DNA from: Betaproteobacteria bacterium
GTDB taxonomy: Bacteria > Pseudomonadota > Gammaproteobacteria > Burkholderiales > Burkholderiaceae_C
Length of the DNA stretch: 37,889 bases
Assembly: GCA_025360705.1 (NCBI GenBank)
Contig: JANYBQ010000403.1
Location: 1-37,889, forward strand
Reading direction: 5' to 3'
The notes under the pieces were generated by a model. That model made no database searches and was not told where the DNA came from. It was given only the letters and a program-made list of their open reading frames with translations. Within the stretch, counting starts at the first letter, position 1. Every line of letters begins with the position of its first letter. Position numbers and translations under genes: made by a program. Of the stretch, positions 3,028-5,940 are shown piece by piece.

Positions 3028-5940
3028 TCATCCGGTATTGCGCAACCCTGCCGCGATCCCATTGATCGAGATATGAATGCCGCGCCGTACGCGTTCATCG
3101 GTTTGCCCGGCGCGAAAGCGGCGCACCAGTTCCACCTGCAGATGGTGCAGCGGGTCGATATACGGAAAGCGATGGCGGATCGAGCGTTGCAGCGCGGCGT
3201 TGTTGGCCAAACGCTGTTTGTGCCCGGTAATCATCGACAACGCGTCCGCCGTCAAGTGCCATTCGGCTTCGATCGCGGCGAGTATCTTTTTGCGCAGACG
3301 GATGTTGCCCACCAGTTCCGCGTAGCGCGAGGCCAGCGCCAGGTCGCTCTTGGCCATGACCATGTCCATGTTGGACAGCAGAGTGCGAAAAAACGGCCAT
3401 TGCCGGTACATCTTTTGCAGCAGCGCAAGTTGTTCCTTGCGGCCTTTGGAATCGGGCGAGGCGAGCAATAGTTGGACGGCCGAACCAAAGCCATACCAGC
3501 CCGGCAATGTAAGCCGGCACTGGCCCCAGCTGAAGCCCCACGGAATGGCACGCAGATCCTCGATTTTTTGCGATGGCTTGCGCGATGCCGGACGCGAGCC
3601 GATGTTGAGTTCGGCGATTTCGCGGATCGGTGTGGACTGAAAAAAGTATTCGGTAAATCCCGGCGTCTCGTAGACCAGCGCGCGGTAGGCCGCCATGCTG
3701 GCATCGGACAGACAAGCCGCGGTGCGCAGGAAGTCCTTGCTGGCCGGCTTGGTGGTCTGCAACAAGGTCGCTTCCAGTGTTGCCGCGACCAGGGTTTCCA
3801 GATTGCGCCGGCCAATTTCGGGGTTGGCATATTTGGAGCCTATGACTTCACCTTGCTCGGTCAGGCGAATCTGTCCGCGTACCGTGCCGGGTGGCTGCGC
3901 CAGGATGGCTTGGTAACTCGGACCACCGCCGCGCCCGACGGTGCCGCCGCGCCCGTGGAACATGCGCAACCGGATCGGTGTAGCTGGGACCCCCACGCTT
4001 GTCACTGCGTGTACTGCGCTGCCCCCCGAGGGGGCGTTCGCGCCTTGGGGCGGCCCGGCGGCGCTCAATCCGCGCTGGGCCAATTCGTCGAACAATTCCA
4101 CCAGCGCGATCTCGGCCAGGTAGAGCTCCCAGTTGCTGGTGAATATGCCGCCGTCCTTGTTGCTGTCCGAGTAGCCCAGCATGATGTCCTGCTCCGCACC
4201 GCTGCGCCGCACCAGCGCGCCCACACCGGGTAACCAATAGAAACCGCGCATGATCGCCGCCGCGTTGCGCAGGTCGGAGATGGTTTCGAACAGCGGCACC
4301 ACGATCAGCTCGGCCCTTGCCTCCGCATCCAGCGTGCCGTGCATCAAACCGGTTTCTTTTTGCAGCAGCAGAACCTCGAGCAGGTCGCTGACGCTCTCGG
4401 TGTGGCTGATGATGTAGTGGCGTATCGCCTGTTCGCCATACTGCGCCAGCATCTGGCGCGCGCATTCGAAAATCGCCAGTTCGGACCGCGCCAGTTCAGA
4501 GTAGGCGTGGCGCATCACGCGCAGCGGCCGGGCGTCGCATAACAGCCGCTGCAGCACCTGGCGTTTGGCGGTCTCATCGAGCTTGGCGTAGTCGGGTTCT
4601 ATACGCGCAACGGCGAGCAACTCGGCCACCACCTCTTCGTGTTTATCCGAGCTTTGACGCAGATCCACCGTGGCCAGATGAAATCCGAACACCTCCGCCG
4701 CGCGCATCAGCGGATGCAGGCGTTGTGTCGCCAGCGCGGCTCCATGGTGGGTCTTGAGCGAGGCGTCGATGGTGCGCAGGTCGGCGCTGAACTCACGCAC
4801 GTGGGCGTAAGGGTTCTGCGGCGCCACCGCATGGCGCGCGGCCTCGCCGCCGGTCAACTGCTTCAGGGTGGCCGCGAGGCGGGCATAAACACCGGTCAGC
4901 GCACGCCGGTAAGGTTCGTCCTCGCGGTGTTCGTTGGTGTCGGGCGACCGATCGGCCAGTTTCTGCATCTCGGGTGAACAACTCACCAGCAGCGCCGATA
5001 CCGACAACTCTCCGCCCAGGTAATGCACTTCGGTCAGGTAGTGGCGCAGCGCGACTTCGGCCTGGCGGCGCAGAGCGTATGACAAGGTCTCGGCGCTTAC
5101 GTTGGGATTGCCGTCGCGGTCGCCGCCGATCCACTGGCCCATGCGCAGGAAACTGTGGATGCCGCTCTGGCCAAGTTCGGCTTCGAGATTGGCGTAAAGC
5201 TTGGGAATTTCGCGCAGAAAAGTGGCTTCGTAATAACTCAACGCGTTTTCGATTTCATCGGCTACCGTGAGTTTGGTGAAGCGTAATAAACGTGTTTGCC
5301 ACAGCTGCATCACGCGCGATCGGATTTGCGCTTCATTGGCGGCCAGTTCCTTGGGCGTCAGCGCGTCCTTGCGTGCCGGGGTGGCACTGGAACGCAGCTT
5401 GATCGCATCACGCGCCACCAGCAGTTGCGCGATGCCGCGCTCCGCATCCAGGATGCTTTTACGCTGCACCTCGGTCGGATGGGCGGTTAGTACCGGGGAA
5501 ACGAAACTGCTGGCCAGCGTCTCCACAATGGCGGCCGGTGTAATGCCGGCCCAGCGCAGGCGCGACAGCGCCACTTCGATGCTGCCTTCCTGCGTTTCGC
5601 CGGCGCGTTCATGGATTGCCCGGCGCCGGATGTGGTGGCGGTCCTCGGCCAGATTGGCCAGGTGGCTGAAATACGTGAAGGCACGGATCACGCTCACCGT
5701 CTGATCGCCGCTCAGCGCCGTCAGCAGCTTCTTGAGCGCACGGTCCGCCTCGGGGTCCGCGTCGCGCCTGAAAGCCACCGACAACTTGCGGATCTGCTCT
5801 ATCAGGTTGAACGCCGCGTCGCCGTCCTGGTCGCGTATTACATCGCCCAGAATTCGGCCAAGCAAACGGATGTCCTCTACCAGAGGGCGTTCGTTTTCGC
5901 GCGAGCGTTGCGGAGATTCGGTAGCGGGGTTTGCGGGCAT
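3028..5940 (-). CDS. ppc: phosphoenolpyruvate carboxylase, with an in-frame inserted segment
   Basis: [57 protein letters not shown] and the C-terminal RNTG are diagnostic. Confidence 0.98.
3981..4066. repeat. GC-rich palindromic repeat element inserted in frame in ppc
   Basis: Three adjacent hairpins: CACGC(3994-3998)/GCGTG(4007-4011); GCCCCC(4021-4026)-CGA-GGGGGC(4030-4035); CGCC(4041-4044)-TTGG-GGCG(4049-4052). It encodes roughly [31 protein letters not shown], which is not expected in PEPC. Confidence 0.75.

Follow-up and report, generated by a model that had tools for sequence, protein, structure and literature searches.

A probable in-frame insertion of a BRE-like hairpin repeat in the phosphoenolpyruvate carboxylase gene of a betaproteobacterium

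Results

The insert of the ppc gene

The ppc gene examined here, coding for phosphoenolpyruvate carboxylase (PEPC), carries an extra segment that is very probably a copy of a non-autonomous, hairpin-forming repeat of the BRE type, inserted in frame in this lineage and tolerated in a loop of the enzyme. The gene is located in a stretch of 37,889 nucleotides (hereafter, the window). The ppc frame stays open throughout the insert (Table 1), as the preliminary description had stated for about 29 extra residues, and both the intact ORF and the Pfam PEPcase match agree with this; the positions proposed there (3981–4066) lie within 3 bases of ours. We inferred the end points from the length of the stem and the composition of the flanks, and an 84-bp net insertion was likewise measured in a uvrD gene (see below). 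If the element ended at GTGGGGG, the ppc copy would be 78 bp long (3990–4067).

Table 1. Features of the ppc gene and of its repeat copy (positions in the window).
Feature	Position	Strand	Basis or remark
ppc, phosphoenolpyruvate carboxylase	3028..5940	minus	970 aa, intact ORF; Pfam PEPcase PF00311
Conserved strand and catalytic loop, residues 658–669	3934..3969	minus	just past the insert
BRE-like copy in ppc, adding ~28 codons	3984..4067	minus	84 bp; end points inferred from all copies
Left hairpin: arm TGAGCGCC (4067–4060), loop, arm GGCGCGAA (4044–4037)	4037..4067	minus	covariation, 113 copies
Middle hairpin GCCCCC-TCG-GGGGGC	4021..4035	minus	sequence; predicted in DNA and RNA folds
Right hairpin CACGC-AGTGACAA-GCGTG	3994..4011	minus	sequence; predicted in DNA and RNA folds
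Right end, GGGGG and TCCCAG (copy consensus GGGGG-CCAYAT)	3984..3994	minus	base preference

The extra peptide corresponds to PEPC residues ~625–653 and is flanked by a helix ending near DELAQRG and by the strand that runs into FHGRGG. Residues F661–G666 and T667–G669 were invariant in 28 aligned PEPCs. Modelling of the loop, already proposed in the preliminary description, was carried out with AlphaFold on 28 PEPCs and gave a normal enzyme: the insert-bearing protein showed the standard PEPC fold (mean pLDDT 82.7; TM-score against E. coli 1jqn of 0.81 by query length and 0.90 by target length), with helix 598–626 and strand 657–662 formed on either side and the insert residues 627–651 predicted as disordered (pLDDT <50). 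The insert had been placed beside the catalytic loop, which holds along the sequence but probably not in space: it lies in the connection that precedes the strand, and by general topology this connection would be on the barrel face away from the active site. The PEPC protein with its insert would be made and active.

As the draft genome comprises 701 contigs, the repeat might have misjoined two of them within ppc. Such an artefact is highly improbable, since the two flanks together make up a complete PEPC gene in a single frame, and five other assemblies show a like arrangement at this linker.

Copy number and host range of the repeat

A whole-genome search with the segment recovered about 43 copies, down to 77% identity, among the matches listed. 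Most of the ppc segment is covered by the copies, at 77–100% identity, so the segment is no chance feature. In particular, the ppc copy shares 93–96% identity over 74–78 bp with others in the same genome, and several copies at unrelated places of the genome are 98–100% identical to each other. The window itself holds a single copy, as initially reported. The repeat is GC-rich and roughly 78–87 bp long, and it forms tandem clusters at about 20 sites, where the commonest period is 84 bp.

Among the matches listed, the repeat was present in 24 out of 25 same-family genomes and in none of the 16 from the rest of the order. In a broader sample of 150 genomes, drawn evenly across the order, its occurrence in other families was patchy, at times with many copies. 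The repeat was also found in seven plasmid records. Its abundance in this genome and its relatives agrees with the preliminary description, which had compared the segment to GC-rich intergenic repeats of Comamonadaceae.

Architecture of the repeat

The ppc segment contains the inverted repeats GCGCC/GGCGC, GCCCCC/GGGGGC and CACGC/GCGTG. The arms of the left hairpin vary among copies yet remain largely complementary; the 113 copies examined contain 65 distinct pairs of arms. At seven further positions, complementarity between the two arms is far more frequent than in partner-shuffled copies (e.g. 94 out of 113 copies against 36.7, sd 4.8), although kinship among copies inflates such counts, and the pairing ends after the ninth position. 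Inheritance alone is an unlikely source of this covariation, given arm pairs as unlike as TTTTGC/GCAAAA, CATCGG/CCGATG and CGCTAC/GTAGCG. The folding energy of the ppc copy was no better than that of dinucleotide-matched shuffles (z of -0.3 for DNA and 0.0 for RNA); the structural evidence is therefore the covariation between copies and not the energy. The three inverted repeats first described are thus present; the energy of the ppc copy itself is ordinary for its composition. Hairpin formation looks to be under selection, at the DNA or RNA level. Templating of the left stem by each target is unlikely, as several copies in the genome share one stem with different flanks. No known RNA family was detected by Rfam in the window. 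At the right end, the base preference extends to 6 nt past GGGGG (120 sites).

In-frame copies inside other genes

We sampled 171 copies at 140 sites in this genome and in relatives. Copies were chosen for their similarity, irrespective of context, and their coding frame was judged by applying a codon model to the 240 nt at each side, with the element left out. In 45 out of the 140 sites, a single open frame runs through the element. The in-frame hosts of this genome are ppc, kdpB, a uvrD-type helicase gene, topB, two acyl-CoA ligase genes and hrpA, the last with two copies in opposite orientations. Among the hosts in relatives are valS, murD, holB, ribF, uvrA, recJ, radA, glnD, putA, moeA, cobQ, cysN, and biotin carboxylase-type and acetoacetate-CoA ligase genes. 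Named family matches were found around the insert or on both its sides in about 30 in-frame sites. The uvrD gene shows a net gain of exactly 28 residues (84 bp) against genomes of the same genus, ribF carries the repeat at different places in two genera, and the acetoacetate-CoA ligase site holds from 0 to 3 copies depending on the genome (0 in this one). In-frame copies are also present in the single-contig genomes G010, G011 and G022, which contribute several sites, so that assembly error is not the general cause.

In an unnamed protein family (..VQFHWKN / DFDDFLASL..), three genera (L125, L144 and L158) share the position of the repeat, which is in tandem in two of the three; L125 had no NCBIfam match. 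Separately, at L026:1324-1399 of this genome the coding flanks share a strand but not a frame, and there is neither a start nor a stop codon nearby; this could be a gene disrupted by the repeat.

Frame and length of the in-frame copies

Frames were assigned relative to the right half of the element. Two of the six possible frames account for 42 out of the 45 in-frame sites (24 in one plus-strand frame and 18 in one minus-strand frame, APTLGTGVSSLPPEGA), and the remaining four frames together for 3. Five frames are open in 86–99% of the copies, and three of the four little-used ones in 86–90%. The bias gave a chi-square p of 3e-12 with sites treated as independent, a value weakened by shared ancestry; the pattern was unchanged when recurrent sites were counted once (18 plus, 15 minus and 2 other, i.e. 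33 out of 35). Core length was divisible by three in 23 out of 35 copies in frame and in 28 out of 66 elsewhere, a weak difference (p 0.036).

Our preferred reading of the bias is selection against the other frames, with survival through purifying selection rather than guided insertion. Its chief rival is target choice, where the codon phase of a target motif would set the frames, and the bias would say little about selection on the protein. The 6 nt past GGGGG are indeed biased to CCAYAT, and copies between genes mostly have their GGGGG end close to a convergent stop codon (see below), which suggests target choice. However, both strands are used with one frame each, the right-end bases of in-frame copies are often off the motif, and target choice alone leaves unexplained the tandem copies that keep the frame inside genes. 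We regard it as an unlikely explanation of the frames.

Copies between genes

The contexts of intergenic copies were counted at the sites L001-L030, L061-L069 and L075-L166. In 38 out of 41 cases, a convergent gene had its stop codon 0–10 nt away from the GGGGG end. Where the gene reads away from the element, an in-frame ATG was found within 12 nt of the GGGGG end (mode 4) in 18 out of 42 cases, against 8 out of 42 in a control window, and the GGGGG end may serve as a Shine-Dalgarno sequence. At five sites (L010, L025, L012, L091 and L138), the downstream genes seem to have ATH for the expected ATG at the right end of the element, and there are in-frame GTG codons inside it; the repeat may have replaced the start codons of such genes.

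The PEPC linker among relatives

The linker had no insert in 29 relatives (four of the same genus and 25 others), nor in a fifth genome of the same genus, according to a split match. We then considered 80 further PEPCs of Comamonadaceae type, which are the best matches to the query PEPC and not a random set (Polaromonas, Rhodoferax, Acidovorax, Ramlibacter and MAGs). The repeat was absent from this linker in 75 of them, so the segment is not a conserved part of related PEPCs, and present in frame in the other five: L216, L226, L233, L268 and L251, with two copies in the latter. The junctions of the copies at this shared linker differ. Two further PEPC loops carry in-frame copies, one in L259, L263 and L268 and the other in L233 and L286. 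On a FastTree phylogeny of 91 PEPCs, on which gains are not separable from losses, the linker trait required 5 changes for 6 bearers; the corresponding figures for the two other loops were 3 for 3 and 2 for 2. Copies at the same linker in several genera could partly be old insertions followed by losses. The copies at the loop shared by L259, L263 and L268 are degraded and reverse-oriented, and seem older than the linker insertions.

We give practically no credence to an ordinary inherited PEPC insertion that resembles the repeat by composition only. The helix–strand linker does vary naturally in length among relatives, but the identity of the ppc copy to those elsewhere in its genome and the absence of the segment from same-genus PEPCs refute this explanation.

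An exapted regulatory or structural loop, kept for activity, oligomerisation or effector response, is very unlikely. In its favour, six genomes belonging to different genera have the repeat at this linker, and one of the other insert-bearing PEPC loops (that of L233 and L286) is highly conserved and, to go by the E. coli enzyme, near the active site. On the other hand, the sequence of the insert, its copy number (1 or 2) and its junctions differ by genome, most close relatives have no insert, and the same repeat occurs in unrelated enzymes, besides the loop being disordered in the model. We found nothing in favour of an exapted function, and of the two options first raised, a selfish, tolerated repeat is favoured over an exapted loop.

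Mobilisation

No copy of the repeat was found in 68 kb around 12 Y1 (RAYT-like) transposase genes. Most genomes of the family have a single gene of this type (here G000:C612:27145-27480, L167), and some repeat-bearing genomes had no match to the Y1 transposase family. We rejected the RAYT/Y1 transposase as mobiliser, as it shows no linkage to the repeat. No target duplication was evident in ppc, in uvrD compared to empty relatives, or in flank composition. The motif CCCAGC is duplicated in the ppc flanks; the two copies are in different codon phases, which does not fit a clean in-frame insertion, and we treated them as chance.

Discussion

The element appears to be already known, since it fits the BRE repeat described in 2011. 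Hot et al. 2011 (PMC3110155) describe BREs as GC-rich, chromosomal, mostly intergenic sequences with a full length of 75–91 bp and tandem runs, in Comamonadaceae (including Polaromonas, Acidovorax and Delftia) and a few other betaproteobacterial families, and they mention some copies entirely inside coding sequences. For these intragenic copies, the main text of that paper is silent on function, reading frame, structure and the genes that host them. Our repeat resembles BREs in length, GC-richness, tandem runs, variable copy number per locus and host range, and relatives by PEPC are named Polaromonas, Rhodoferax and Acidovorax. We provisionally assign it to BRE on these shared traits rather than on the published Bordetella sequences. 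In the literature searched we found no later work on BRE copies within coding sequence and, apparently, no description of the scale, the frame rule, the repeated occurrence in PEPC or the variation of the left stem in matched pairs.

By behaviour, the repeat is analogous to the Rickettsia palindromic elements (RPEs), short hairpin repeats that are both intergenic and tolerated in frame in many unrelated conserved genes (PMC2229807, PMC10969869). RPEs measure 105–150 bp and belong to intracellular bacteria, whereas BREs are about 84 bp long, GC-rich, read on both strands, often in tandem, and found in free-living bacteria. The preliminary description had anticipated such a betaproteobacterial counterpart, and the share of in-frame sites gives it a larger scale than was supposed. 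REP elements are also small palindromic repeats with many copies, and the Bordetella repeats have been placed among REP-like families without conserved terminal tags (PMC3733652); REP/RAYT systems differ in that no BRE was near the Y1 transposase genes tested. Intragenic MITEs (ERIC/RU-1, the 107-bp Correia element and YPAL; PMC2229807) are likewise small and non-autonomous, with open frames fused to host genes, but they mostly have terminal inverted repeats and target duplications, neither of which is evident for BRE. MITEs have been reported in Polaromonas, according to a review.

Putting this together, BRE would spread through Comamonadaceae-type genomes by means of an enzyme acting in trans on its hairpins. 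It would have entered ppc in this lineage as ~84 bp, with no evident target duplication, in a loop of variable length. The gene would keep its frame and its fold, with an added disordered loop, because the length is a multiple of three and the strand reads as a small neutral peptide. The repeat would persist at places allowed by selection. Between genes, these would be sites with the GGGGG end by start or stop codons; inside genes, they would be in-frame positions in loops, read in the frame that encodes small residues. A bolder and more doubtful proposal is that BRE is an active, hairpin-guided element whose two preferred frames are shaped for harmless linkers, and whose left-stem pairs point to structure-dependent, possibly single-stranded, insertion. 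If true, BRE would be colonising proteins on a large scale in free-living bacteria.

Rickettsia is the best-known case of palindromic repeats inserted in frame into proteins, and there genome reduction and weak selection make the phenomenon easy to explain away. Here, a different repeat behaves alike in ordinary free-living betaproteobacteria, at about one third of the sampled sites, and its hosts include enzymes that are essential elsewhere, such as ValS, MurD, HolB and RibF. For genome annotation, BRE segments of 25–30 residues (50–85 when in tandem) should not be taken for domains. Finally, these repeats amount to many natural insertion experiments in well-understood enzymes, and they offer a route to testing the origin of protein loops.
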